From an uncultured Gammaproteobacteria bacterium (GTDB lineage: Bacteria; Pseudomonadota; Gammaproteobacteria; UBA6429; Thiohalophilaceae): a DNA stretch of 64,000 nucleotides. The notes beneath the pieces are model-generated. The model was not told the DNA's origin, searched no databases, and was given only the letters and a program-made list of their open reading frames with translations. Position 1 is the first letter of the stretch. Each line of letters opens with the position of its first letter. This document shows, piece by piece, positions 515 through 17,505 of the stretch. The translations under genes and the position numbers were made by a program. Location of the stretch: positions 1 through 64,000 of the forward strand of contig CAJYAN010000014.1 of the NCBI GenBank assembly GCA_913064945.1. The letters run 5' to 3'.

Positions 515-3500
515 TTTCTAAGCTGCCTGTGCGGCAGTGAACGTACAGCCCTGGGCATCTCCTCGCAATTTTCTTTTCTAAGCTGCCTGTGCGGCAGTGA
601 ACGACCGGCGGCAAACAGCATAATCTAGGGTCATTTTCTAAGCTGCCTGTGCGGCAGTGAACGCTCTTACCATCGCCAAACGTCCCCTGCATCATTTCTA
701 AGCTGCCTGTGCGGCAGTGAACGTGATAAGAAGGCCGAGGCCCTCCTGTGCGGTTTTCTAAGCTGCCTGTGCGGCAGTGAACTTTGCAAATACTTTTCCG
801 GACATATCCGTTTAATTTCTAAGCTGCCTGTGCGGCAGTGAACCGCATGACCAATTTCATACACGCTATAAGCCATTTCTAAGCTGCCTGTGCGGCAGTG
901 AACTATTGAAGCAATCCCACAGAGGGCGCAGTTGTTTTCTAAGCTGCCTGTGCGGCAGTGAACGACCAGAGACGCGACGGCAATCGCTGCTGTCTTTTCT
1001 AAGCTGCCTGTGCGGCAGTGAACAAAACCAAGCGTACCACATCACAAGCCGAGCTTTTCTAAGCTGCCTGTGCGGCAGTGAACAGCAACATCATTGCCAA
1101 CGGGATCACAGGCATTTTCTAAGCTGCCTGTGCGGCAGTGAACGGAATAGATTGCGACACGTTATCATCCACAAATTTCTAAGCTGCCTGTGCGGCAGTG
1201 AACGGACTGCAAACGATGTTGATGTAATCCCCACATTTCTAAGCTGCCTGTGCGGCAGTGAACGGTGACCAATATTCGACTCAATCCGGTAAAATTTTCT
1301 AAGCTGCCTGTGCGGCAGTGAACTAATAGCGAGCTGCCTACGCGCAACATTTTGATTTCTAAGCTGCCTGTGCGGCAGTGAACCCGGACGTGGTAAGGGT
1401 TCACCGTCCATTGTATTTCTAAGCTGCCTGTGCGGCAGTGAACATTGTGCTGCTCGTCGTGCGTCCGAGGCGTCATTTCTAAGCTGCCTGTGCGGCAGTG
1501 AACCAACAACGTTTACTGTCACAGGGGCATCGGTTTTTCTAAGCTGCCTGTGCGGCAGTGAACATAAGATGTTTTCAACAGCTGCTTTGATATGTTTTCT
1601 AAGCTGCCTGTGCGGCAGTGAACGCATCATCATCAATGCCCAGAGCGCCGTGATATTTCTAAGCTGCCTGTGCGGCAGTGAACATTACGGTAACGATGAT
1701 TTAGTTTTTTTAATCTTTCTAAGCTGCCTGTGCGGCAGTGAACTTCTAAGCGCGTACTAGATGCTGATTTACCTATTTCTAAGCTGCCTGTGCGGCAGTG
1801 AACTGTTGATTAATGCACCAGACTCTTAATCTCTTTTTCTAAGCTGCCTGTGCGGCAGTGAACCACATGGGCCATATGCACCACGTCGACATCAATTTCT
1901 AAGCTGCCTGTGCGGCAGTGAACAATAGGCCAGCTCCATTATGATCCACAGGTAGTTTCTAAGCTGCCTGTGCGGCAGTGAACTTTCCTAAAAAATCGAC
2001 GTGTAACGTAAAGATTTTCTAAGCTGCCTGTGCGGCAGTGAACGCGGTGTCGCTCCGTTTGGTGCTGACTTCAACTTTCTAAGCTGCCTGTGCGGCAGTG
2101 AACTACTCCGATGTCAATCATGCCGCCTTTATTTTTTTCTAAGCTGCCTGTGCGGCAGTGAACGCTTAAACGACTGCGGAAAGGCAATTAATTAATTTCT
2201 AAGCTGCCTGTGCGGCAGTGAACGACACGTTCTCTACAGAGTAGTGGTTCACAGTTTTCTAAGCTGCCTGTGCGGCAGTGAACGAGCGGGGGCGATAAAA
2301 TCACCATTTTTAAAATTTCTAAGCTGCCTGTGCGGCAGTGAACATGCTGTCTCCTTGGCAAGACAATTAGAGAAATTTCTAAGCTGCCTGTGCGGCAGTG
2401 AACAAAATTGAAGTTATCGCAAACGGGACGGACGTTTTCTAAGCTGCCTGTGCGGCAGTGAACTCGGTGGCAATTTCCGATATACCGTCACCTATTTTCT
2501 AAGCTGCCTGTGCGGCAGTGAACCGGGCAACATCGAAGCGGGCGCGGGCTTTGATTTTCTAAGCTGCCTGTGCGGCAGTGAACCAATGGATAACGTTTAT
2601 GTATGGGCGCGAAACTTTCTAAGCTGCCTGTGCGGCAGTGAACCGATGAACCCGACCTATCGGCGGGTTATCTTTTTTCTAAGCTGCCTGTGCGGCAGTG
2701 AACGAGACTTCTGAGTAATAAATAGCCCCATCTATTTTCTAAGCTGCCTGTGCGGCAGTGAACGAAGTAGGGCGGCTGACCATTAACCCGGAAATTTTCT
2801 AAGCTGCCTGTGCGGCAGTGAACCTCCCCCCGCATTATCTCAGCAAACCTTCACTTTTCTAAGCTGCCTGTGCGGCAGTGAACTCACGCCCAAGTGGGGG
2901 ATCTATAATGCAAACTTTCTAAGCTGCCTGTGCGGCAGTGAACATCATGCCCTCGCGGTATTGTTTCTCGATATTTTTCTAAGCTGCCTGTGCGGCAGTG
3001 AACGCAACATCAAAAAACCCGCGTTCGTTGTAATCTTTCTAAGCTGCCTGTGCGGCAGTGAACAATTGGCCCGTTTTTTGCCGACTTTAAAACTATTTCT
3101 AAGCTGCCTGTGCGGCAGTGAACGGTCGTCGGTTTGATAATCGGCTTGCCATTCATTTCTAAGCTGCCTGTGCGGCAGTGAACTGCAGCTGAGGTTGATA
3201 AGGCACAGGTGGATAATTTCTAAGCTGCCTGTGCGGCAGTGAACGCTGCACGCTGTCCTAGAGGGCCAAGGTTATTTTTCTAAGCTGCCTGTGCGGCAGT
3301 GAACTTCTAAACGCCTTGAAGTCGCCACGCTTTAGTTTTCTAAGCTGCCTGTGCGGCAGTGAACCAATTAGCCCAAGGTAATCCAGAGGTTTGGCATTTC
3401 TAAGCTGCCTGTGCGGCAGTGAACCCTTTAATGCTGCCACAGCCCTTCCAGTTATATTTCTAAGCTGCCTGTGCGGCAGTGAACCCATCTGCAAAGCATG

Positions 3501-6500
3501 GCTGGCAGCCTTTGGATTTCTAAGCTGCCTGTGCGGCAGTGAACTTAGGCTATCCAAAGGACGCCCCACTATCTAATTTCTAAGCTGCCTGTGCGGCAGT
3601 GAACCAAAGACCTCCTAAAGCGTGACGCATCGGACTTTTCTAAGCTGCCTGTGCGGCAGTGAACTTGACGTGCCCAGCGCAGTACCATTAGTCAATTTTC
3701 TAAGCTGCCTGTGCGGCAGTGAACTAATGCATTGGTAGCGGCTTGAGTGCCTTGGTTTTCTAAGCTGCCTGTGCGGCAGTGAACAATCAGCTGTTGCTTT
3801 TCTATTCTCCGAGGGCTTTCTAAGCTGCCTGTGCGGCAGTGAACTAATGTAGAGAGATTCGAGCGGGTGTTCTCAATTTCTAAGCTGCCTGTGCGGCAGT
3901 GAACCAACAGGGTCTTATCCCTGCCCTGTATGCAATTTTCTAAGCTGCCTGTGCGGCAGTGAACACAGATTCGGCCCTGGCAAAGAATTAGCAATCTTTC
4001 TAAGCTGCCTGTGCGGCAGTGAACCCGTGCGTCATGCCGTGGCCGCCGAAGATGCTTTTCTAAGCTGCCTGTGCGGCAGTGAACTATCACAATCAGGTGT
4101 GTGATTTAATGGGGTGTTTCTAAGCTGCCTGTGCGGCAGTGAACAATATTGGGAGTCCGGCCGCTCGCCGGTGCCTTTTCTAAGCTGCCTGTGCGGCAGT
4201 GAACAAAAAGCCAGGGACTTTGATTGCGACGCCTGTGTTTCTAAGCTGCCTGTGCGGCAGTGAACAAGAAAACGAAAGCAATTATCCGCACTTCGGCTTT
4301 CTAAGCTGCCTGTGCGGCAGTGAACATGAAAATAAATCTGCGGAAATGTTATATATATTTCTAAGCTGCCTGTGCGGCAGTGAACAATAGTTCGTTCGCG
4401 TCGGCGAGACTCTGAACTTTCTAAGCTGCCTGTGCGGCAGTGAACTCACCAGCCAGCGGGGTAGCTTATACCCTACTTTTCTAAGCTGCCTGTGCGGCAG
4501 TGAACGACGGCCTGACCAATCCGGCCAAGGGTGTCGATTTCTAAGCTGCCTGTGCGGCAGTGAACAAGAAGTCCAGCCTCTTATCGGTGAAGTCGTTTTT
4601 CTAAGCTGCCTGTGCGGCAGTGAACCCATAAACAACCAGCGAGCCTCGGCTTTCATATTTCTAAGCTGCCTGTGCGGCAGTGAACAATAACAAAGCCGAG
4701 GAGTTGTTCAAGTGAGCTTTCTAAGCTGCCTGTGCGGCAGTGAACCCAGTGCCAATCTGGCCGGTGCCAATCTGGCCTTTCTAAGCTGCCTGTGCGGCAG
4801 TGAACGGTGTGAATTGTCCGGTGAATTGTCCGGAGAATTTCTAAGCTGCCTGTGCGGCAGTGAACTATCACCAGTGCTAATCGAGCATGAAGTTGATTTT
4901 CTAAGCTGCCTGTGCGGCAGTGAACTTGTGACAAACACAAAGTAAAACTTAAATGCATTTCTAAGCTGCCTGTGCGGCAGTGAACATGGCGGCGTCGAAG
5001 TACCGGAGGAACTGGCATTTCTAAGCTGCCTGTGCGGCAGTGAACGGCAACGTATCGAATCGGACATGGCAATATTGTTTCTAAGCTGCCTGTGCGGCAG
5101 TGAACCTAAAGCGCCTGGGCGAGCGAAACCCAACAAATTTCTAAGCTGCCTGTGCGGCAGTGAACCGTGATATGTCGACGCCGCGCCACTTGGCATCTTT
5201 CTAAGCTGCCTGTGCGGCAGTGAACTTGGCATGCATAACACGCACATGAAATGGTTATTTCTAAGCTGCCTGTGCGGCAGTGAACTAGTACGGATTGACA
5301 GTCGCCTTGCTGATATTTTTCTAAGCTGCCTGTGCGGCAGTGAACGTAAAAATCCACCTTCGGCATTCCTTCCTCACTTTCTAAGCTGCCTGTGCGGCAG
5401 TGAACTTCTCCTAACAGTACGATGAACCCGACCTATCTTTCTAAGCTGCCTGTGCGGCAGTGAACTACGTTACCAGCTTTGTTCTCCACGGTTATTGTTT
5501 CTAAGCTGCCTGTGCGGCAGTGAACTTATCAAAACGGTGATGTCGCTATTTTTAAATTTTCTAAGCTGCCTGTGCGGCAGTGAACGGGCTATCTCGCCCG
5601 GTTCTCCATGTCGACAATTTCTAAGCTGCCTGTGCGGCAGTGAACTGACAGCTCGGCCGCTGATAGCCTGTGAGGTATTTCTAAGCTGCCTGTGCGGCAG
5701 TGAACTCGCGCGGCAGCCAGTCATAGGCATTTTCTTTTTTCTAAGCTGCCTGTGCGGCAGTGAACGGCGCGCCTTCCATTTGGCTGCACACCGTGATTTT
5801 CTAAGCTGCCTGTGCGGCAGTGAACGGGTACTTGTCCAACATGGAGCCGGAGCTTTGTTTCTAAGCTGCCTGTGCGGCAGTGAACGGATACCACGCCGCC
5901 GCCCGCGAATAATGCCATTTCTAAGCTGCCTGTGCGGCAGTGAACCATTGGTTCGTTGCGCGAAGCAATGGACAAGTTTTCTAAGCTGCCTGTGCGGCAG
6001 TGAACCAGCAAATGCCAGGCACGGGAAAAACAGCAGTTTTCTAAGCTGCCTGTGCGGCAGTGAACTCTTGTCTGCGAGTAGAGAACGACGGACCGGTTTT
6101 CTAAGCTGCCTGTGCGGCAGTGAACCTATGCACGTTACGTTAAACGCTTTGGGCTTTTTTCTAAGCTGCCTGTGCGGCAGTGAACCTTAAACAGACGAAT
6201 TATTTTTTCTTTTCGTCGTTTCTAAGCTGCCTGTGCGGCAGTGAACATGGACCAGAAGAACCGGCGTCTGGCCTTAGATTTCTAAGCTGCCTGTGCGGCA
6301 GTGAACTTAAGAATTATACCACGCCAGCAGGCAGAAAATTTCTAAGCTGCCTGTGCGGCAGTGAACACAGCTCCACTCTAAATCCTGCTACTGAAAATTT
6401 TTCTAAGCTGCCTGTGCGGCAGTGAACAAAATGTCTCTAGAATAATGACAAATATAGCATTTCTAAGCTGCCTGTGCGGCAGTGAACTTGTTTTCACGCA

Positions 6501-6908
6501 ATAGCGCCCAGGCGCTTGATTTCTAAGCTGCCTGTGCGGCAGTGAACACGCACATTGCGCTGCGTGACAACGCGCATAATTTTCTAAGCTGCCTGTGCGG
6601 CAGTGAACAGTAACTCAGTGGCCGTCATCATTGTTCCTTTTTTCTAAGCTGCCTGTGCGGCAGTGAACGGCAAGAACCCGGATGGCATGGATAAGCGCCA
6701 TTTCTAAGCTGCCTGTGCGGCAGTGAACCATGCCCGCCCTACCAGGCGATATGAAATCTTTTTCTAAGCTGCCTGTGCGGCAGTGAACAATGTCGGAGAT
6801 TTCTTCCATTCCGATACGATTTTCTAAGCTGCCTGTGCGGCAGTGAACTCTTTGACCCTTCTGTTATTGAAATAACAAATTTTCTAAGCTGCCTGTGCGG
6901 CAGTGAAC
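515..6908 (-). CRISPR. Type I-F CRISPR array, 107 repeats and 106 spacers
   Basis: On the plus strand a 28-nt unit beginning TTTCTAAGCTGCC and ending GCGGCAGTGAAC recurs every 60 bp. Its complement begins GTTCACTGCCGC and ends GGCAGCTTAGAAA, the classic I-F (Csy) repeat with a 5-bp stem GCTGCC/GGCAGC-type core cut by Cas6f. First repeat 515-542, last 6881-6908. Counting by period and phase gives 107 repeats: 100 spacers of 32 nt and six of 33 nt (ending before 816, 3217, 4238, 6219, 6400, 6581). I saw no base change in any repeat, including the trailer-end one. By repeat orientation the array is transcribed on the minus strand, so the leader is at 6909 onwards and spacers near 6880 are the newest. 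The many open frames across the array are artefacts of the 60-bp period. Confidence 0.98.
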
Positions 6909-6924
6909 AGCAGTATAAAACATA

Positions 6925-7007
6925 AAAAATCAGTTACAACAATAACTTAGTTCAGAATTAACCTGATAACCAATGTTTTTAGTGGTTGTTGTAACTAATT
7001 GATTTTT
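6925..7007. repeat. Interrupted inverted repeat in the CRISPR leader
   Basis: Left arm 6925-6942 (AAAAATCAGTTACAACAA) is matched by the right arm 6986-7007 read in complement, apart from a 4-nt insertion (TAAT, 6996-6999) in the right arm. A smaller pair AACCA/TGGTT (6968-6972, 6983-6987) lies inside. The right arm overlaps the IHF site: the four extra bases help create the IHF consensus, which the left arm lacks. Confidence 0.75.
6992..7004 (-). promoter_or_regulatory. IHF binding site in the CRISPR leader
   Basis: The minus strand reads AATCAATTAGTTA, a full match to the IHF consensus WATCAANNNNTTR. It lies about 84-96 bp from the first repeat. In type I-F systems IHF bends the leader so that Cas1-Cas2/3 integrates at the first repeat; the assignment here rests on that known mechanism plus the exact match. 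Confidence 0.7.
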
Positions 7008-7085
7008 AATCTAATTGTAAAAGAACGAAAAATATTGGTGTCAGATCAATATCTGTGCGCCGAATAGTATGTGACTCAGCTTGTG

Positions 7086-8480
7086 TCACATAGTTAAATA
7101 ACTGTGGTTTAAACGTTGGGTTTCTCCAACCATATACAGTGGCAATGACAGTAGGTCATAGTTTACGGTTGAACCGTCGGTCATTTTTTTTGTGTCGTTG
7201 AGCAGGCTGGGGACATCCGCGTTAAAACGCAGCGCAAAATGACGGTTTTTTTCTTTTATAAACTGGTGCAATGATTTAAGGCTGCCGGTGGTGCCTGCCT
7301 TGATTTCTACCGGTACGATATGCTGGCCACAGGTGAGTAGATAATCAACCTCCGCTGCGGCGCTTTTGGCTTCGCGTACCCAATAGTAAAGTTCTGGCGT
7401 TTCATAATACGGGCCACTGTACATTAGATGCTGCCCGATAAATTGTTCAGCCAGTGCGCCTTTGTTAACCAAACTCAAATCCTCTTTGTTGAGATCAAGC
7501 ACGTTGAGATTTAATGCGGCGGATTGTAAACCAATATCCAGATACAGGGTTTTAAAAAAACGCGGATTGATTTCAGCCGCAAGGGGGATGCCATTGGCCG
7601 ACGTGTGGAAAACTTTGGTGGCGATACGCGCTAAACACAAGTGTCTTAGTGCTGTATCCAGTTCGGCGGCGCGATGATCACGGCTGACTTGTGCGTATTT
7701 GAATTTTTGACCCACCATAACGGGCAATTGATCAAACACCATCTGCACCAGCCGCTTCAGGTTACCGTGGCTGTACTTATTAAAATCATCTCGATAGGTA
7801 ACCACGATATTCTGTTGCACCCTGGCCACATCATGAAAATCACTCGATGCAGCATATTGTGCTATCGCTTCCGGTAGGCCACCGGTAATCCAGTATTGCT
7901 TGAGAAGGTTCATACATTTTTCATGGACGACACGTTGCATGTTACCGCTACGAATGTCATCTAATGACAAATGGTGGAGATATCCGACTAATTCCTGCTG
8001 CCCCATCGCCACCATAAAATCCTCAAACTGCATGGGGCCGAGATGCAAGTATTCAATGCGACCCACCGGCATGGAAAACTGCGCATCCGCCAGGGTAAAT
8101 TCCAGCAGTGAACCGGCGGCCAGTATGTGCAAGGTCGGCATCTCTTCGTAAAAATAACGCAGCGCCGCTAGTGCTTCCGGTGCAGCTTGAATTTCATCCA
8201 GAAATAATAGGGTCTTGCCCGCCGTCATTTTTTTACCAGTAAGCAACTGCAAGGTGGCCTGAATTTGAATCGGATCCTTGCTGGCAAAGGCCTCCAGATA
8301 TTCAGGATTGCGCTCAAAATTGATCTCCAGCAAAACCAGCCCGCTGGCCTCGGCAAACTGGCGCACCAGCGTTGACTTGCCGACCTGCCGTGCGCCTCGG
8401 ATAACGAGGGGCTTGCGGTTCGATCTGCCTGACCAGTCCAGAAGGTAAGAAAGCTCTTTACGTAACAGCAGGCTGGCCAT
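7086..8480 (-). CDS. AAA-family ATPase with C-terminal DUF4143 (464 aa)
   Basis: Start chosen at the ATG ending at 8480, which follows AAAGGTGG with 5-nt spacing; an in-frame GTG three codons upstream lies inside that site. Residues 29-36 are a Walker A (GARQVGKS) and 91-98 a Walker B (LLFLDEIQ), followed by a sensor-like ILAAGSLLEF. Near residues 377-396 EVDYLL...PVEIKAG resembles the D...ExK core of the PD-(D/E)XK-like fold in DUF4143. This family is widespread, often mobile and of unknown function; it is not a standard cas gene. It lies in the same orientation between cas6f and the leader, with a 180-bp gap and its own repeated motif upstream, so it probably has a separate promoter. Role in CRISPR immunity is unproven. 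Confidence 0.85.
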   Translation of the reverse strand: MASLLLRKELSYLLDWSGRSNRKPLVIRGARQVGKSTLVRQFAEASGLVLLEINFERNPEYLEAFASKDPIQIQATLQLLTGKKMTAGKTLLFLDEIQAAPEALAALRYFYEEMPTLHILAAGSLLEFTLADAQFSMPVGRIEYLHLGPMQFEDFMVAMGQQELVGYLHHLSLDDIRSGNMQRVVHEKCMNLLKQYWITGGLPEAIAQYAASSDFHDVARVQQNIVVTYRDDFNKYSHGNLKRLVQMVFDQLPVMVGQKFKYAQVSRDHRAAELDTALRHLCLARIATKVFHTSANGIPLAAEINPRFFKTLYLDIGLQSAALNLNVLDLNKEDLSLVNKGALAEQFIGQHLMYSGPYYETPELYYWVREAKSAAAEVDYLLTCGQHIVPVEIKAGTTGSLKSLHQFIKEKNRHFALRFNADVPSLLNDTKKMTDGSTVNYDLLSLPLYMVGETQRLNHSYLTM

Positions 8481-8528
8481 GGTAACCACCTTTAACTTAT
8501 TGAAGTTGTATAGAGACTATCGTGAATG

Positions 8529-8660: not shown

Positions 8661-9311
8661 TTAGTCGAACCAGGGGACTGTGGCGGTTTTGGACAGGCCG
8701 TAACAATCAAACCTACCTTGTTGCGGCCCTGCCAATTTAGCCTTTTCAATAAACAGCTTAAATCTTGGCTTTCGATCATCGGTTGCGCTAGATTGACTCT
8801 CTACTTGTATATAGGGCATCTTTTCTTCATTGAATGCATATTTCTTATTTAACTCTTGCAGAGTGTCGTTAAAATCCAGGCCAAATTTATCCGAAATATG
8901 TTTGGCTTTTTTTTGAAGCGACTGCTCAAGCCTCTTTTCTCCTTTGACCCGCTTTTGTCTAAAGCCAGCGTAAGAGACCGAACTCGGTACCGCTTCTATC
9001 GAATCAATTTGCACATAATCCAGTAACCTGCTTAGCCATTTCTCTATACCTAGCCCCTCCAGAAATGCTTGCTCTTGAGCTAGTAAACGAAGTTTGTTTC
9101 CCAAAGGATAAGCGTTATCGCCATAGCATGGGAAAGACACCGCAATTTTAGAACCTCTCAGAGTTGTTTCTGTGCCATCATTTTCTTTCCGTACATATTC
9201 ATACCCTTTATCAACCAATGCGATATGCACTTGCTGAAACACTTTTTGCCAGATGTAGCCGAGGTTAATTTCAGCATTCGCTATAAGCGTTAAATCCTGG
9301 TAGTAATTCAT
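8661..9311 (-). CDS. cas6f: Cas6f (Csy4), CRISPR RNA endonuclease
   Basis: 216 residues. It cuts pre-crRNA at the base of the repeat hairpin and stays bound to the 3' handle of the crRNA in the Csy complex. The catalytic histidine is at residue 29 (QQVHIAL), the same position as in Pseudomonas Csy4. The SQSS segment near 172 and the C-terminal CYGLSKTATVPWF are also family hallmarks. It is about 30 residues longer than the Pseudomonas protein, with the extra length in the middle. It is the last gene of the cas operon, 3 bp after cas7f, and the perfect array repeats fit an active enzyme. Confidence 0.95.
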   Translation of the reverse strand: MNYYQDLTLIANAEINLGYIWQKVFQQVHIALVDKGYEYVRKENDGTETTLRGSKIAVSFPCYGDNAYPLGNKLRLLAQEQAFLEGLGIEKWLSRLLDYVQIDSIEAVPSSVSYAGFRQKRVKGEKRLEQSLQKKAKHISDKFGLDFNDTLQELNKKYAFNEEKMPYIQVESQSSATDDRKPRFKLFIEKAKLAGPQQGRFDCYGLSKTATVPWFD

Positions 9312-9314
9312 GGG

Positions 9315-10310
9315 CTACCCCTTTTTTTCGCTCTTTTTACTGAATACACCGCCACGAATCAGATTGGCAGTGACATAGGACTTTTGATCATCATTAATGT
9401 CATTATCTTTTTCCGAATTAACCCAATTAACCATGAGGGTGTACAAGTCTACGTCTTTTTTGCGATACGCTTCACCACGTTGTGTCACTGCCCCAAAAGG
9501 CTCAATGGCAATAGGTTGCTTTTCTTCGGTATAGCGGGGGTACCAGGTGTCTATGGTGCGAATGGCGTTGCCGATCTTGACATTATGCATAGCAGCGCAA
9601 CCATCTAATTGAAATAGTGTTTTACCCTTCTCATTCATATTCATTTCCTGCGAGGGAAAAACATGTTGAAGGACCCCGAGTTTGACATAGGCGTCAACAT
9701 TAACCAGCACAAAGCTTTCGCTATCACCTTTCAAACCTGCTTCAATGATTGCAGCAAGCTTATTAAGATCAGCATGTTCTTTATTTTCGTCAAAATTTAC
9801 CAACGAAAAATCATAAGCATTGAAGTCCAGAGCTGGGTCATTGCCTACTGTTACATGTATGGATATTTCATCCGCCCCTACACGATTGCGCCACAAAAAT
9901 CTGCCATTCGCGATATTGTAGGCATAGCGATAGGCCAATTCACTCACACCATTTGAATCTTTGAATTCGTTTACTTTAGCAACTATTGCAGATTCAAAAC
10001 CTGGATCATTGCAGCCAAAGGGTTTGCCCAGATTTCCAACCACTCGAAGGCTAAAGCTAACCTTCAACGTGTCTTTATTTAAAGGTAAATTAGCATCATC
10101 ACTATCAGATGCTTTAGGGTTTGGCTTTTTCATGTCTTCTACACTTGTACCATAGTTACTAATGGTTGAACGATTCAGTCTTTTTGTAACAGGTATTACC
10201 TCCCACTCACCCTGTCGTTCCTTTTCATTCCAATTTCCTGAAAACATTAATCCATCAGATGTTTCCAGTTTACGTTCAAATGCCAGCATGCTTGGTAAGT
10301 CTATAGTCAT
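9315..10310 (-). CDS. cas7f: Cas7f (Csy3), backbone subunit of the I-F Cascade
   Basis: 331 residues. Six copies polymerise along the crRNA spacer to form the surveillance-complex backbone. The N-terminus SMLAFERKLETSDGLMFSG, the internal LKVSFSLRVVG and YNIANGRFLWRNRVGA, and the late VFPSQEM are recognisable Csy3 blocks in the usual order. Length is as expected for the family. It is 29 bp downstream of cas5f and 3 bp upstream of cas6f in one transcription unit. Confidence 0.95.
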   Translation of the reverse strand: MTIDLPSMLAFERKLETSDGLMFSGNWNEKERQGEWEVIPVTKRLNRSTISNYGTSVEDMKKPNPKASDSDDANLPLNKDTLKVSFSLRVVGNLGKPFGCNDPGFESAIVAKVNEFKDSNGVSELAYRYAYNIANGRFLWRNRVGADEISIHVTVGNDPALDFNAYDFSLVNFDENKEHADLNKLAAIIEAGLKGDSESFVLVNVDAYVKLGVLQHVFPSQEMNMNEKGKTLFQLDGCAAMHNVKIGNAIRTIDTWYPRYTEEKQPIAIEPFGAVTQRGEAYRKKDVDLYTLMVNWVNSEKDNDINDDQKSYVTANLIRGGVFSKKSEKKG

Positions 10311-10339: not shown

Positions 10340-11530
10340 TTAGTCGTAAATACTTGGTGTGCGTGTTGTGTCTTCAGTTTTATGGCGCTCAATTCCTTGT
10401 TTACATAGGTACCAGTGTGTTTCATAAGGAGCGTAATACCAAAGACTGTTTGCCAGTACCTCAGTGGTTTTAATGCGATGAATGCTTTGCCATTCACCAA
10501 TGGAGTGTACAGATTCGACGAAACAGACATCGGTTTCGCTATCCCGTGCGCCAGCCACGCTACCTTTTTCATACACTTGCGATATGGCCTTGTAGCCAGT
10601 CATGATTGGAACCAAATAGCCTTGTATTGGCTTCTTGACATATTCCCAGTCAGAATCGGTTTTGTCAGTTGGTTCACAATAAGCTTGCCATTGAGCATGC
10701 AGTTTGTGGTGCTCTTTTTCATCCAGAGATAAAGATGCGAAATAAGTTGTTAGCAACGATGGGATATTGCCCAGGTCATAAGGTTCTGCTTTATGGTCTT
10801 GCCAACAGGTTAATAATTGCTCTACTTCTTCGCTATTCGGATTTTCTTTCCATCGCTTCCGCAGATGCTTTTCAATCAGATCACTTTTGGGTCTGGCTTT
10901 TTGTTTCAAAGCCGAAAAATTAAGCCAGGCATCTATGAGTTCGGCATCAGGGTTTTGCTTTTGCAACTCTTCTTCAAAATAGACAGCTAGATCTTCAGAG
11001 CGATCCTGCAAAATAAAACCGGGCAGTAATTTTCGTTTCAATCTTCGCAAGCTGGATTCTTCGCTAAGATCAAGCAATTCGACGGCATCTATATCCAGCA
11101 CCGTTCCACCGGCCAGTCTTTGTATGCTGCTTATATTTGTGATCCATTGTTTAAAAGCATCTTCCTGATTACCTACATAACCATCGAAGCCGATAAGTAG
11201 CGACACTGTCATATTCATTTTCGCTTCTTCTATTACAGAAGGATCTTTTAAGCGGCCTTTATCAAACTTCAGCTCAAGATAATGTGCAGATTTGTTTTGC
11301 GAAAAGTTAATACCGCCCGATGTTCTATAGCAGTGAACCTGATGTTCATGCGCAATGACAGCACAGCCTTGCAGGCTGAAGTCATTAAAACGTGGGTGTT
11401 GTTTTAACTTTCGGTGTAAGTTATGGGTAAAGCCTAAAAAATGAGTGATCGCAGGAAACCCCCAGGTAAATCCTGAAACGGCATTGGCATTTTGCACACG
11501 CACTCGATTGAGTAATAAATACTGGCTCAT
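10340..11530 (-). CDS. cas5f: Cas5f (Csy2), 5'-handle subunit of the I-F Cascade
   Basis: 396 residues. The N-terminus YLLLNRVRVQNANAVSGFTWGFPAITHFLGF is the typical Csy2 opening with its RAMP-like strand. The protein pairs with Cas8f and holds the 5' end of the crRNA. It overlaps cas8f by 4 bp (ATGA), indicating translational coupling. It is some 70 residues longer than Pseudomonas Csy2, mostly in a charged central part (about 200-290) rich in Lys, Glu and Trp. Confidence 0.93.
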   Translation of the reverse strand: MSQYLLLNRVRVQNANAVSGFTWGFPAITHFLGFTHNLHRKLKQHPRFNDFSLQGCAVIAHEHQVHCYRTSGGINFSQNKSAHYLELKFDKGRLKDPSVIEEAKMNMTVSLLIGFDGYVGNQEDAFKQWITNISSIQRLAGGTVLDIDAVELLDLSEESSLRRLKRKLLPGFILQDRSEDLAVYFEEELQKQNPDAELIDAWLNFSALKQKARPKSDLIEKHLRKRWKENPNSEEVEQLLTCWQDHKAEPYDLGNIPSLLTTYFASLSLDEKEHHKLHAQWQAYCEPTDKTDSDWEYVKKPIQGYLVPIMTGYKAISQVYEKGSVAGARDSETDVCFVESVHSIGEWQSIHRIKTTEVLANSLWYYAPYETHWYLCKQGIERHKTEDTTRTPSIYD

Positions 11531-13080
11531 GCTTCCACCTCCATACTACGCTTGCGGTCGAATTCCATTGCTTGAGTTAACTCTCTTAATTCCGGTTCAA
11601 ACAGTTGATGCCAGAGGCGGGTATGTTGGACTTGAGGGGTGAACAGTTTATCCTTACCTGCCAACTTATTGTTAAGCCAGTCGGCGAAGTCTTTACAGAC
11701 CACTGATAGCCAGTCTGTGCTGACTCTAGCTGCCTGAAAATTGTCATCTTTACGATCAGGATCAAGCAAATGCTGATGTTCTAATTTGAGTTTGATATTG
11801 GAAGCGGCTGACCAACCTGCCTGAAGATTCTGGATGCTGCCAATGTAATACAATACCTCATCGATAATGTTACCAACCCACTTCTCAATCCATTTCATCC
11901 GCCTGGGGTCTTTGATGCTTAGCTCGATACGATCAAAACGGAGCAAAAAATCCCGTAAATAATCAATATCTTCTTTTGCCTGCCAGTAGATAGAAGAATC
12001 AAAAAACAGGGATTTTTTAAAAATGGGAGGCTTAAGTTGGGATTGCCATAATGGCGGCAGTGAACTTAACAATGTTAATTTTCCCCCTCTTTTTGTGTGC
12101 AATGGAGAAACATTCTTGGCATCACTGGCTGACGATATGGCTAATTTTGCGTTATTGGGAAACCAACTCAAATGTTCTTTATTGAACTTATGGTTATCAC
12201 GGAGCTTACCTATTTTTTTGCCATCCTCATCTCCTTTAACTGCTAGATAGATATGGTGAGCTAAAGATGACGCGTTAACGTTACATAATAAATGATACTT
12301 TAATTCAACTTCATTAGTGGGGAAATAAACCTGTTTTGCCAACGAATGGCTGGCCAGTCGCTCTGTTTGAAAAACGGATGAAAAATTTCTTGTCCAACTA
12401 TCGAGCTTATTTACATCGTTAGTCAGATATTTAAAGGGATTGAATTCAGAATCAATGAGAATACTCGCTATAGTTCTACCATTAACCTCTAGTTTTAATA
12501 GACTAGCTACAGGGGCGTAACTAGCATTATCAAGCGCATCATCCACTATTGGTTTAGCTATTGAGTCTGTAGTTAAATACCCATTAACTTGTTCAGAATC
12601 AGATCCATATCGAACATAAAACGAAGATGCACCATTTATGCTTGAATTTGTCAGTTTTGCCACATGCGTAGCAAAGCTGACACCGCTTGCATAACCCGCG
12701 TATTTATCTAGCCAAACTTCTGGTTTGTGCTCCTCGCTAATTTTTAGAACCGCGTCTTCATATTGCTTAATAATAACAGTAAGCTTCTCTCGCTCAGGAG
12801 CAAGGGCAATCAAAGCTTCAAACACTTGCTTAGCAAACTGTAGCGGTGGCAATTTGTTTTCACCCGTATTTTTGGCTGTAACCACACGATCAAGCCCTTC
12901 TCGATCGACCTTTGGCACTTTTCTAAGAAAAGATTCCAGCTGAATATTTATTGCTTGTTTTTCATGATCCATACTTTTTTTAGGATTTTTTTTAACAAGA
13001 AGATCTAATATTTTTTGCTCTTTTCTGGCCTTAATAAATTGGCAAATCTCTTCTTTACAATCCAATACAATTTGATCCAT
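11527..13080 (-). CDS. cas8f: Cas8f (Csy1), large subunit, PAM recognition
   Basis: Start set at the ATG ending at 13080 (MDQIVLDCKEE) because GGAGACC lies just upstream; an earlier in-frame ATG nine codons before lacks a good site. This gives 517 residues and a 26-bp overlap with the end of cas2-3. Csy1 reads the CC PAM and starts DNA unwinding. Evidence is operon position between cas2-3 and cas5f, size, and segments such as YFPTNEVELKYHLLCNV and the C-terminal RLWHQLFEPELREL typical of Csy1. It is longer than Pseudomonas Csy1 (about 430). Confidence 0.92.
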   Translation of the reverse strand: MDQIVLDCKEEICQFIKARKEQKILDLLVKKNPKKSMDHEKQAINIQLESFLRKVPKVDREGLDRVVTAKNTGENKLPPLQFAKQVFEALIALAPEREKLTVIIKQYEDAVLKISEEHKPEVWLDKYAGYASGVSFATHVAKLTNSSINGASSFYVRYGSDSEQVNGYLTTDSIAKPIVDDALDNASYAPVASLLKLEVNGRTIASILIDSEFNPFKYLTNDVNKLDSWTRNFSSVFQTERLASHSLAKQVYFPTNEVELKYHLLCNVNASSLAHHIYLAVKGDEDGKKIGKLRDNHKFNKEHLSWFPNNAKLAISSASDAKNVSPLHTKRGGKLTLLSSLPPLWQSQLKPPIFKKSLFFDSSIYWQAKEDIDYLRDFLLRFDRIELSIKDPRRMKWIEKWVGNIIDEVLYYIGSIQNLQAGWSAASNIKLKLEHQHLLDPDRKDDNFQAARVSTDWLSVVCKDFADWLNNKLAGKDKLFTPQVQHTRLWHQLFEPELRELTQAMEFDRKRSMEVEA

Positions 13081-16000
13081 CTTGGTCTCCAGATTTCTGA
13101 TACACACCTAAATTATAATCGTAACTATATTCTTCAATTTCTTTGTTGACATAGCTCACTAATCTTATCTCACCAAAATCCTTCCCCACAGTTTCAATAT
13201 CTATGTTCAAATCTTCAGCAAGTTTTTGATAAATGCTATGCGCCGTTAACTCAAACCAAAACCCGTTGCTATCCACTATTTCTATATTTTCGGATGATCT
13301 AATACTGAAACCAGATCCTGATATCTGATCTGTCCATCTAGCAGGATAGACATGCTCGTTTTTCCATTGCCATTTTGTCTCGTCGTTATCCAGCGTTAAA
13401 TACAATGCTTCATCTTTTTTGGAATCACGAAACCGTTGTTGCTTTTGCACTTCACCACACCAAAAAGGCCTTTTGTCCCACCACAACCTAGCAGCCTTCG
13501 GTGACGTCAGTAATGTTTCTCGAAGTGCTTTATGTTCGAGTGAAACCAGGTTTTGAGACGCGGTTTCGTCATATTTATCTGGCGCAGTTATTCGCTGAAT
13601 CGAGTTGATGGTTTGATACTGGTCTCTATACAAAACATGTGTTAAGTCATGCTGTACCATTGCTAGTTTTAGCTTTGCCAATTCAAAACCTGGCCTTTCA
13701 AAGCAAGGCTTAACACCCTTAAGGCATTTGATGTTCTTATCCAGCAGCAGAATATTGGCATGTTCTGGTTCTTTATCCCGGTGTCTCAATACTCTGCCGG
13801 CAATTTGAATAATGGAACGCATGGAGCTGGGTTCGATAATGGCCCAGTCATAGTCATGATCCCGGCCGACTTCAGCGACAGGTGAAGCAAGCACAATAAA
13901 AATCTGATGTTTTTCCGGGAAGGCGGCTACTTTGGCTTTTAGCTCTTGTGGTGGCCAATCATTCTGTTTCGAGTTTCGTTTGAGCATCAGATCCAGTTTG
14001 TTCTCAAGATAAGAACGAATCGCCAATGGAAAACGGCTGTGATAAACGCATAAGTGAATTCGGGTATCCTGCTGAGAAACCTTTAGCTTTAACATTTCTT
14101 TGGCAACCGCCACTAGTGGATTTATGTTGGCCATGCGCACCAAACCTATGGAAACATGCTTTTGCTCAATTTCCTGGCCATGACGTTGATGCAATTGCAA
14201 GGCACCTTGTTGTATGACTCTGGCAACTGTTTGATAAACCGTTTCCTGATCAACTTTCTCGATAGCTAGTATTTCGACTTTGTGTTTAACCTTTTCGTTT
14301 TTTTGCAGATAAGTTTTACGAGCATCGACAAATATTTTGTGTGCCTTTTTAAATGATCCAAAGTCACTCGTATTACAATCCTTATTATTTTTCTCGTCAA
14401 ACCAGGCGCAGGTAATCGCACCGTTCCAGTTTGCCAGATTGGCTTTGGCATATTGCGACCACCCTGCCTGATAAGCTTCAAATGCGGCATAGGCCAATGC
14501 CGGTGGCATGGTGGCGGTGGACAATAAAACCCGGCTACCCAACATGCCTGCCCAGTGTACTAAGCGACAAAGTGCTGGTAAATCATCGAGGCCAAAATCA
14601 TCCGGTTCGTCAATCACCAAATCCGATGTCAACAGCCTCAGCATGGGTGCGATTTGTTTTCCACCCCTGGTGCCTTCAGTGGCAGGTACTAAATGGTCAA
14701 TGGTGCAGACCAGTACAGGCGTCTGGATGAGCTTTTCAATACGCGGGTTATCTTTCGTCCATTTCGACAGGCTATGCTCTTGAAAACTCCCTTCGTAATC
14801 GACATACAAATCCGGATCGAGATAGTCATTCTGGGATTCGCTGCCGGTATCTATTTCCTGATCATTCTTGTTTTTATTTTGCTCGGCATTTTCAAATAAT
14901 TGCTTCACAGCAGATCCACCCACTGCAATTGCTAATTGTTCATCGCTTAACTCCAGTTCTGTTCGATATTCTCTGCCGGTTTGTAGCGTAAGTGTGCGCA
15001 AACCTAGTGCCACGCTAAAGCGCTGCCTGCCTGTCTTCTCGCCCAGGGCATACATGATTTTGGCATTGGCCAGTGTTTTTCCTTTGCCAGTGGATGCCAT
15101 ATTGATTCCAAAAAATCCTTGCTGCGTACATGATTCGCTCAACTTAAGCGCGAGTCTTTTAGCATCATCCTGCCAGCCGAATTGTTCCTTGAAAGCATTT
15201 AGCGTGTCACCTTCAAGAAAGGCATTTTCTGGGAGTGATCTTAACCTTTTACTGCTGCCATTCAGTTTTGGCAGGGCTTTGACAATAGCTTTGGCGTGAT
15301 AGGCGACACCGATCAGATGCTCATCCAGTTGCTGCTTTAGTGCTTTGTTTTTATCAGTATTGGCGTAAACCTTATAGTTCGGGTTTTGCCATTCCTCGGT
15401 TTTATCCTGTACCGAATAATAATGATCTGCCAGCATCAGACTTAAGCGTGCCAGGTGTGATGTGAAAATATTGTCACACAGAAATCTTGAGCCATTCAGA
15501 TGCTTAAGAACAGTTTTAGCCTCTGAGGCAATCACACAGGCATGTGAGCGCCATTTCATGCTTTGATAAGGCAGGCCGAAATCCGTGAACTTCCAGTTAT
15601 CACCTATCAGACTTTTAATGTCTACGTCTTTACAGTTGTATGAGTTCCAGATAGCGTCAAAGCCATTCGTAAACCAATGCTCAATATCTTTTAGTGGGGC
15701 ATTATTAATATCATCCTTCCAGCTGGGTGTTAAAGGTAACTTGTGATGCGTCAGAATTAACCAGGCAACCAACTGGGCAAAATGCGGCAAATTCTGTAAT
15801 GGATATTTGTCAAAATCACTTTTATATTGCGTATCAATTCCATCTCTGAAACATGCAGTGCTTTGATCTTTTTCAACCTGACTCAATGCCTCAAGCCACT
15901 CTTCATCTGATTTGCTACCAACAAATGCCTGAAAAAGGCGTAATGACACCCACTCATGACGATAGGGTTCGTAAGTTTTGGCTTGATCATCTTTCTTTTT

Positions 16001-16429
16001 ATTTTTTTTCTTTTTGGGATCAAGTTTTTGCTGAAATAAGATATTAGCCTTACCAAAATCATGAAACAGCCCTGCAATAGCGGCTGCGTATTTGATGACC
16101 TCCAGGGTTTGCCATTGACCACTATCCATGTATTGTTCTATGGCATTTTCAGTGAAATTCACCGGTACTACACCCTGCTCATTAAACTTTCTTTTATTCC
16201 CCACCACCCACACCAATTCAGTCCGTGATCGGCCCCGTATCCAATGACAACTCACCGCCGTATTTTTGCTCGCTGTTTTACGCAGCAGTTTTTTAACCGC
16301 TAACAGTCCTTCCTGGGTGATCACCGTTTGCCAGGTATTATCCCCAATGCGGTCAGCAAATGCATCCAGCACCCTGCGGGTGCGGTTGAGCGCTTTTTTC
16401 TCACACTGGGAGACAAAGGTGACCATCAT
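13055..16429 (-). CDS. cas3: Cas2-Cas3 fusion helicase-nuclease (type I-F Cas3)
   Basis: 1124 residues. Residues 1 to about 85 form the Cas2-like domain that makes the fusion diagnostic of I-F. The HD nuclease follows (AGLFHDFGK, H123-D124). Then the SF2 helicase: Walker A ASTGKGKT near 446, Walker B VIDEP near 606, LLSTATMPP near 640, and motif VI QIAGRVLRHR near 875. It degrades targets selected by the Csy complex and, with Cas1, captures spacers. A low-complexity KKKKNKKK stretch lies near residue 145. All catalytic motifs look intact. It overlaps cas1 by 4 bp. Confidence 0.96.
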   Translation of the reverse strand: MMVTFVSQCEKKALNRTRRVLDAFADRIGDNTWQTVITQEGLLAVKKLLRKTASKNTAVSCHWIRGRSRTELVWVVGNKRKFNEQGVVPVNFTENAIEQYMDSGQWQTLEVIKYAAAIAGLFHDFGKANILFQQKLDPKKKKNKKKDDQAKTYEPYRHEWVSLRLFQAFVGSKSDEEWLEALSQVEKDQSTACFRDGIDTQYKSDFDKYPLQNLPHFAQLVAWLILTHHKLPLTPSWKDDINNAPLKDIEHWFTNGFDAIWNSYNCKDVDIKSLIGDNWKFTDFGLPYQSMKWRSHACVIASEAKTVLKHLNGSRFLCDNIFTSHLARLSLMLADHYYSVQDKTEEWQNPNYKVYANTDKNKALKQQLDEHLIGVAYHAKAIVKALPKLNGSSKRLRSLPENAFLEGDTLNAFKEQFGWQDDAKRLALKLSESCTQQGFFGINMASTGKGKTLANAKIMYALGEKTGRQRFSVALGLRTLTLQTGREYRTELELSDEQLAIAVGGSAVKQLFENAEQNKNKNDQEIDTGSESQNDYLDPDLYVDYEGSFQEHSLSKWTKDNPRIEKLIQTPVLVCTIDHLVPATEGTRGGKQIAPMLRLLTSDLVIDEPDDFGLDDLPALCRLVHWAGMLGSRVLLSTATMPPALAYAAFEAYQAGWSQYAKANLANWNGAITCAWFDEKNNKDCNTSDFGSFKKAHKIFVDARKTYLQKNEKVKHKVEILAIEKVDQETVYQTVARVIQQGALQLHQRHGQEIEQKHVSIGLVRMANINPLVAVAKEMLKLKVSQQDTRIHLCVYHSRFPLAIRSYLENKLDLMLKRNSKQNDWPPQELKAKVAAFPEKHQIFIVLASPVAEVGRDHDYDWAIIEPSSMRSIIQIAGRVLRHRDKEPEHANILLLDKNIKCLKGVKPCFERPGFELAKLKLAMVQHDLTHVLYRDQYQTINSIQRITAPDKYDETASQNLVSLEHKALRETLLTSPKAARLWWDKRPFWCGEVQKQQRFRDSKKDEALYLTLDNDETKWQWKNEHVYPARWTDQISGSGFSIRSSENIEIVDSNGFWFELTAHSIYQKLAEDLNIDIETVGKDFGEIRLVSYVNKEIEEYSYDYNLGVYQKSGDQDGSNCIGL

Positions 16430-17472
16430 GAATCTTCACCCTCACCATGCCCTCTCGACTCGGGTTCAATACTTCGTTCTACCTCCTCCATCCCTGGAGT
16501 CGTCCCTGATGGAGATGGTTTCATAGATATTTCTCTGTGCTTTAGTGCAACATCCTTGACCTGGTCGAACATGAAGTCCAGCGCCTTGTGGTCGGTAAAT
16601 GCCTGCAGGCACTGCTGGCGGAATTCCTGTTCGGTAGCGTTTTCTTTGGCACAGATGAATGACCAGGGCAGTACCAGCGTGTCTTTTATTAAATCGGCCA
16701 CGTCAAACACCAGTGCACCGCGACGGGTTTTGCCGTGCATGACTGCGAAACCATGCGGGATACCCAGAACCCAAAGCGTTGTCGCCGCCAGACCATAGGC
16801 CAGATAATTGCCGTGATTGAGGAAGGCATTGGCGCTATCGACGGATTCTCTTTCGCGCACAAAATCGGTATGCTTGGTTCTGTTGGCGGCTATTTTATAG
16901 AGACGTTTGGTGAGCTCGGCCTCTATTTGCAGTAGCTTGCCAACCTTCTGTGCCTGTTCGATGTTGGCAAGGGTGTTGGCCAACGCTGATGTGACATCTT
17001 CATCATGCACACTAAACCCGGCGGCAATTAAATCCCGGTCTTTCGCCCAGACCGTTTGCATAAAGCGGATTCTTGCGATTTGAAACTGTTTTGCTGTATC
17101 AAGCCGTTTTTGTTCATCAAACCAGAAACTCATCCAGCCCTGAATATATTCAGTAGGCCGGTATTCACTCTGCGGTGTCATCCATTCCACTTCTGTCGCA
17201 GCTAATAAGGGTGTCCCTCCACCACCACAAAAACCGATCAACACCCCTGCAGACGCCAGCATTCTTACCGCTGCCTGGGTAAGTGAAGTGCCTGTACCCA
17301 GCAAAATGACCGTTGTATTTGCGATAGGGATATTCCAGTACTGATTTTCATCCTTTGCCTCGGTCAAATACAGTACCCGCCCGTCCTTCTGCATGACCCG
17401 GCACTTTTCGAGGTAATAAATATTGGCACGTTTTGAGTGCAATATTGCTTTCAGGTCAGTTAATTGTTCCAT
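16426..17472 (-). CDS. cas1: Cas1 integrase (type I-F)
   Basis: 348 residues from the ATG ending at 17472 (MEQLTDLKAIL), preceded by AGGGAAACG. An upstream TTG-type start would add 11 residues without a site. Cas1 joins Cas2-3 to insert spacers at the leader end. FCGGGGTPLL, HGNYLAYGLAATTLW and HGKTRRGALVFDVADLIKD (metal ligands H246, D257, D260) are canonical. The last 30 residues or so (MKPSPSG...GHGEGEDS) are a polar Pro/Glu/Gly tail beyond the usual end of the family. It is the first core cas gene of the operon and couples to cas2-3. Confidence 0.95.
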   Translation of the reverse strand: MEQLTDLKAILHSKRANIYYLEKCRVMQKDGRVLYLTEAKDENQYWNIPIANTTVILLGTGTSLTQAAVRMLASAGVLIGFCGGGGTPLLAATEVEWMTPQSEYRPTEYIQGWMSFWFDEQKRLDTAKQFQIARIRFMQTVWAKDRDLIAAGFSVHDEDVTSALANTLANIEQAQKVGKLLQIEAELTKRLYKIAANRTKHTDFVRERESVDSANAFLNHGNYLAYGLAATTLWVLGIPHGFAVMHGKTRRGALVFDVADLIKDTLVLPWSFICAKENATEQEFRQQCLQAFTDHKALDFMFDQVKDVALKHREISMKPSPSGTTPGMEEVERSIEPESRGHGEGEDS

Positions 17473-17505
17473 TCGTTTCCCTGCTTTTTTTGTTAGCCAT
17501 TGCAA

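Follow-up and report, generated by a model that had tools for sequence, protein, structure and literature searches.

Overlapping spacers taken repeatedly from one target are already known from Legionella: the type I-C array of clustered regularly interspaced short palindromic repeats (CRISPR) in Legionella pneumophila Toronto-2005 contains two pairs, each formed by an older and a newer spacer against the element LME-1, the older one being mismatched, and natural priming was proposed for them (Rao et al. 2016, PMC5071653). The pair described here is a further instance; it lies in the type I-F array of an uncultured gammaproteobacterium of the Thiohalophilaceae (assembly GCA_913064945.1, contig CAJYAN010000014.1, positions 1 to 64,000; this whole stretch of 64,000 nucleotides is called the window). 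As in Legionella, a single array contains spacers of different age that overlap, here on what is probably one target, and re-sampling or priming can be proposed; the LME-1 pairs differ in belonging to type I-C, in having a known element and in older spacers that mismatch its protospacer adjacent motif (PAM) or seed, whereas the present pair is I-F and no target was found for it. Closer in type is the I-F system of Pectobacterium atrosepticum (PMC5059440, PMC4117759), which has the same 32-nt spacers, GG/CC PAM, A/T at the spacer 5' end and Cas1 plus Cas2-3, and in which new protospacers lie near the primed one, as do the two protospacers of this pair. Those data come from experiments with a known plasmid and favour the opposite strand, 60-65% of first captures being on the non-primed strand (PMC5059440), whereas the two spacers considered here are on the same strand. 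The I-F system of L. pneumophila (PMC7056967) likewise shows primed acquisition near the priming site; unlike this pair, it was studied by laboratory acquisition on a known target, and about 75% of new protospacers were on the non-primed strand. The comparison covers openly licensed papers only, and does not show that an I-F pair is unpublished.

The array and the two spacers are placed as follows.
515-6908, minus strand: type I-F CRISPR array of 107 identical 28-nt repeats and 106 spacers; the CRISPR RNA (crRNA) sense is the minus strand
2644-2675, minus strand: older spacer, no. 71 from the leader; shared block at 2644-2661, GG at 2662-2663
5406-5437, minus strand: younger spacer, no. 25 from the leader; shared block at 5420-5437

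The start of spacer 71, CGATGAACCCGACCTATC, is exactly the 18-nt end of spacer 25 (5420-5437); the two spacers have one orientation, are offset by 14 nt and have 45 spacers between them. An earlier note on this DNA had described this overlap, the common orientation with its offset and the GG after the shared block in the older spacer (read on the plus strand), and all of this is borne out. In the window the 18-mer occurs at these two sites only, even at 3 mismatches, and shuffled windows (n = 100) contain a mean of 0.03 matches. When all pairs of the 106 spacers are compared on both strands, the longest common word is this 18-nt one, the only such pair, and the runner-up measures 13 nt; the chance expectations, which assume equal base frequencies, are 3.6e-5 for 18 nt and 0.066 for 13 nt. 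An overlap score that tolerates mismatches (at least 14 nt) reaches 33.3 bits for spacers 25 and 71, in agreement with the single source sequence that the earlier note had assumed. No other pair is clearly separated from shuffled spacers: the second-ranking real pair has 16.4 bits, and the highest value in 6 shuffled sets is 15.3. These comparisons speak strongly for a shared origin of the two spacers, probably through more than one capture from the same invader lineage. A 13-nt word is also common to spacers 7 (about 6488-6519) and 30 (about 5106-5137), on opposite strands and with disagreeing flanks; with 0.066 expected, it is probably due to chance.

Joined through the shared block, spacers 25 and 71 give a 46-nt contig, where the newer protospacer is immediately preceded by CC (crRNA sense). 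The reading preferred here, to which a probability of roughly 0.85 is given, is that an active I-F system captured pieces repeatedly from one invader lineage, each piece being cut beside GG and inserted at the leader. We infer the single lineage and the activity of the system, while the steps of cutting and insertion are taken from known I-F biology: Cas1:Cas2-3 would cut each piece beside GG (CC in crRNA sense) and add it at the leader. The second piece would be located 14 nt farther from the PAM of the first one, on the same strand, and its own PAM and seed would fall in or beside the PAM-distal part of the first target. Such a shift would mean that mutations in the PAM of the first target, or in its first 12 positions, give no protection against the second crRNA.

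The genes that accompany the array are all on the minus strand.
8661-9311, minus strand: cas6f/csy4, TIGR02563, above cut-off
9315-10310, minus strand: csy3/cas7f, TIGR02566, above cut-off
10340-11530, minus strand: csy2/cas5f, TIGR02565, above cut-off
11527-13107, minus strand: csy1/cas8f, TIGR02564, above cut-off
13055-16429, minus strand: cas2-3 (Cas3f), TIGR02562, 1110/1110 profile positions
16426-17505, minus strand: cas1f, TIGR03637, above cut-off

The six genes are consecutive and their CRISPR-associated (Cas) products pass the NCBIfam cut-offs in 6/6 cases, a gene set that corresponds to type I-F (I-F1), the type named in the earlier note. Repeat and spacers indicate the same type, the 28-nt repeat being palindromic and identical in 107/107 copies and the spacers measuring 32 nt in 100/106 and 33 nt in 6/106. 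The locus is a complete type I-F CRISPR-Cas system. The repeat was counted 107 times in the organism's own genome (3.2 Mb, 22 contigs; up to 3 mismatches), which equals the array's own number, and thus no copy exists outside the array. In Csy1 the profile match starts only at residue 126 of 526, leaving a long N-terminal part beyond the family model. Between cas6f and the leader, a gene at 7086-8489 (minus strand) matches the PADLOC candidate defence family PDC-S01; an NCBIfam profile search gave no match for this gene, whose product resembles an ATPase.

The order of acquisition follows from the position of the leader.
6909-7040, minus strand: leader (approximate extent), conserved in three relatives, where an array or a repeat follows it

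The flank at the high-coordinate end of the array is similar to the sequence upstream of an array in relative G013 (77% identity over 159 nt) and upstream of a repeat in relatives G018 (75% over 162 nt) and G035 (73% over 145 nt); these figures of 73 to 77% (loci L060, L061 and L064/L067) count the 28-nt repeat too. This homology puts the leader at about 6909-7040, so that higher coordinates hold younger spacers, and the older spacer is indeed the deeper one, as the earlier note had it. The spacer ends point in a compatible direction: read in crRNA sense, 47 of the 106 spacers begin with A, 38 with T, 14 with G and 7 with C, which makes A/T 85/106 (binomial p 2e-9) and C 7/106 (p 8e-6), while the last base at the 3' end is evenly distributed (A/T p 0.92). 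The same 5' A/T bias, with C strongly under-represented, is described for I-F systems (Staals 2016, PMC5059440). Since it needs no target, the bias independently supports the putative PAM-proximal end of the spacers.

Some relatives hold leaders or repeats on their own. In G018 (L061) the conserved I-F leader is followed by one perfect repeat (1505-1532), and in G035 (L064/L067) by one repeat with 1 mismatch, with no second repeat at array spacing within the stretch examined in either case; G035 also has two degenerate repeat-like copies nearby, with 3 and 7 mismatches. Both loci, a leader plus a lone repeat, are apparently empty or collapsed arrays. In G025 (L062) and G015 (L063) a perfect lone I-F repeat occurs without a leader, near repetitive reading frames that resemble CRISPR arrays of other types, presumably I-C and I-E.

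The published I-F PAM is a GG-3' that follows the protospacer on the target strand (PMC4117759; PMC5059440), equal to CC at the 5' side of the crRNA-sense protospacer; for this reason the CC of the 46-nt contig stands in the right register for the newer protospacer. To this extent the earlier note was correct in seeing the I-F PAM, while its statement that the array verifies a PAM goes too far: CC is found at 183 of 3292 dinucleotide positions inside the spacers (5.6%), so that the agreement, with a chance of about 6%, amounts to a consistency check, and for the older protospacer the array does not reveal the PAM. A second view of the PAM is offered by another spacer, two places older than spacer 25.
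5286-5317, minus strand: spacer 27, whose target can be recognised as a phage gene of the DUF2213 family; most of its closest homologues have CC upstream of the site

Spacer 27 matches Pseudomonas phage Orimi01 and three sister phages (blast piece equal to the spacer plus one base, E 2); in Orimi01, 28/32 bases agree, in frame, within the DUF2213 gene, and 10 shuffled spacer sets come no closer than 9 mismatches. A degenerate pattern derived from the spacer 27 peptide retrieved 64 IMG/VR stretches, whose likeness to the spacer is partly by construction, the two bases upstream lying outside the pattern. Two of the three closest relatives are identical to each other at the site and have 3 differences from the spacer, all synonymous. 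CC precedes the site in 3/3 relatives at 3 mismatches and in 8/9 at up to 4 (6/7 distinct sequences); the proportion is 14/26 at up to 5 mismatches and 32/64 overall, and the corresponding dinucleotide in Orimi01 is CA. These counts are support for the PAM and not proof, because the preceding codon constrains the bases concerned. No exact protospacer was found for any spacer tested in the PAM assessment.

The earlier note had proposed to search for the 46-nt contig in phage, plasmid and metagenome data; searches of phage, plasmid and IMG/VR data did not find the invader. By blastn, 5 phage records (best E 0.8) and 5 plasmid records (best E 3) were returned, and in no case was 80% of the contig covered. 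The exact 18-mer is present in 3 IMG/VR stretches and in 16 contigs of GTDB species genomes, all 19 of which differ from the contig by 19 to 26 mismatches over 46 nt, and these matches outside the array are read as probable chance. At up to 1 mismatch the 18-mer was found in 3/96 genomes (95 relatives plus the own genome), the two other than the own one having 22 and 24 mismatches over 46 nt. In IMG/VR, the left 16-mer occurs in 20 stretches with 17 to 24 mismatches over 46 nt, and neither the right 17-mer nor the back-translated patterns of the contig's two open frames gave a match; the 5 stretches retrieved by a looser back-translated pattern had 21 to 23 mismatches, their open frames spanned 11-30 codons, and they were rejected. 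Thus, in the phage, plasmid, IMG/VR, GTDB and 95-relative searches no site outside the array contains either full spacer; since most of these searches were exact-pattern ones, a diverged target may have been missed.

Two phage genes were considered as targets of the pair. Among the 20 stretches with the left 16-mer, six have a single phage gene in common in the DUF2213 frame, identified by the Pfam profile DUF2213 in the one that was tested; they differ from spacer 71 at 6 to 9 of 32 positions. DUF2213 was rejected as the target of the pair, since in that frame spacer 25 introduces a stop codon; moreover, the PAM position reads GC in the three loci with up to 7 mismatches. The other candidate is the large terminase subunit (assigned by Terminase_3 in the two cases tested, L146 and Orimi01): the five best sites for the 46 nt among the 64 phage loci, with 18 or 19/46 mismatches, are all in this gene, where the open frame of the contig gives SPNSTMNPTYRRVIF against NPKNILDPTYQRFVV in the phages. 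In the same loci plus Orimi01, 18 or fewer mismatches were reached by 41/300 shuffles and 28/100 spacer chimeras, and the peptide-level terminase score was attained by 27/80 shuffles. With a terminase profile, the score was attained by 3/500 shuffles and 1/104 chimeras; this profile, however, was built after the site was known, with 8/34 aligned rows (fragments, misaligned, distant) removed by hand and the remaining 26 thinned at 90% identity to 12. At one point the contig reads SP where all 26 rows have NP. A terminase search in 40 family genomes, the own one included, gave 1 match, poorly aligned at the site and among the 8 dropped rows. The terminase is the sole lead on the target of the pair, and is not significant by the tests that are not tied to that gene. 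It is improbable, though worth stating, that the 46 nt belong to the large-subunit terminase gene of a tailed phage, a relative of the DUF2213 phages of spacer 27; the packaging and head module of one lineage would then have been re-sampled, with PAM and seed moved 14 nt past escape mutants.

How the two captures came about can be explained in several ways. A primed origin has nearly an even chance: the older crRNA would have bound an escape mutant imperfectly and recruited Cas1:Cas2-3, which took an overlapping piece. Priming in I-F exceeds naive capture in efficiency by a factor of more than 500 (PMC5059440), primed captures cluster near the primed site (PMC4117759) and priming was likewise proposed for the Legionella I-C pairs, where the older member mismatches the target (PMC5071653); a shift of 14 nt displaces PAM and seed from the old ones, and may bypass mutations there. 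In this array the newer spacer is nearer to the leader and its site adjoins that of the older one, with the 18 nt as the only sign of the same element. The order and the proximity thus fit the primed acquisition proposed in the earlier note, which is not demonstrated by them: with no target no mismatch is visible, and both spacers are on the primed strand, whereas first captures are mostly on the other, 5' of the primed site. Since the strand preference is a majority tendency, one same-strand pair does not exclude priming; neutral sampling accounts for one pair about as well. Indeed, the two captures may have been independent, drawn from a common invader without priming or with priming by another spacer, and may overlap by accident; this possibility is rated somewhat short of even. 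In simulated arrays of 106 random spacers on either strand, at least one overlap of at least 14 nt appears with a probability of 0.63, 0.39, 0.21 or 0.13 for 5, 10, 20 or 40 invaders of 40 kb, and of 0.33 to 0.05 for invaders of 100 kb, the invader numbers being assumptions; several spacers per invader are needed, and the simulated class (at least 14 nt, either strand) is broader than the observed 18-nt same-strand pair.

The other explanations question the common source itself. The two spacers may derive from different elements with only a conserved stretch in common, which would make the 46-nt contig a chimera; only 18 nt are present in both spacers, and a phage gene may be shared in conserved form by many phages, of which the target of spacer 27 is an example. 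An identity of 18 nt without substitution would rather point to close relatives, and the explanation by two elements is unlikely. Chance identity of unrelated spacers is nearly excluded by the expectation of 3.6e-5 and by 6 shuffled sets without a comparable pair. Repeated capture from one invader lineage has to be set against a few points that weigh on the other side. The CC in the contig is a single one and weak as evidence; the 46 nt, which the earlier note took as reconstructed invader sequence, do join, yet form a hypothetical contig whose outer 14-nt ends are each known from a single spacer; and the strand of the pair departs from the majority seen in priming experiments. One lineage, and any escape mutations, would have to be supposed with no invader sequence found for the pair, and an escape mutation cannot be seen, since the invader was not found in the searched records. 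Furthermore, an origin of spacers 25 and 71 in one burst is unlikely, because 45 spacers separate them.

Further spacers gave weaker matches. Spacer 48 differs by 6 or 7 mismatches from a second gene of the phages that carry the recognised target gene of spacer 27, in 9 loci with CC upstream in 3/9; in three shuffled sets the number of matches at up to 8 mismatches was 0, 0 and 1, and the same spacer also resembles a Gordonia phage endolysin. Spacer 36 matches a repetitive phage gene, with low complexity; spacers 36 (4746-4777) and 35 (4806-4837) both have a direct repeat within them, which would fit an origin in genes with short tandem repeats. Against plasmids the whole array gave 81 records, and among the matches listed (60) most are long array-like or multi-piece ones. 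In 40 family genomes, the own one included, array and spacers yielded repeats or weak similarities; in the loci examined, no whole spacer matched with fewer than 7 mismatches (3 to 9 candidates scored per genome). As to self-targets, the whole array has no match with E < 1 in the own genome outside the array, and two spacer-only searches returned the array plus one weak 20-nt match, E 0.65 (9/13 and 8/15 candidates scored).

Taken alone, the pair is a single anecdote that agrees with established I-F biology; events of this ordinary kind have been described before. An overlapping pair within one array is also a small record of repeated contact with what is probably one invader lineage, and the 46-nt contig may serve as a probe for that invader. 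If the invader is found, the pair would reveal whether, in nature, the new capture came after escape mutations in the old PAM or seed.

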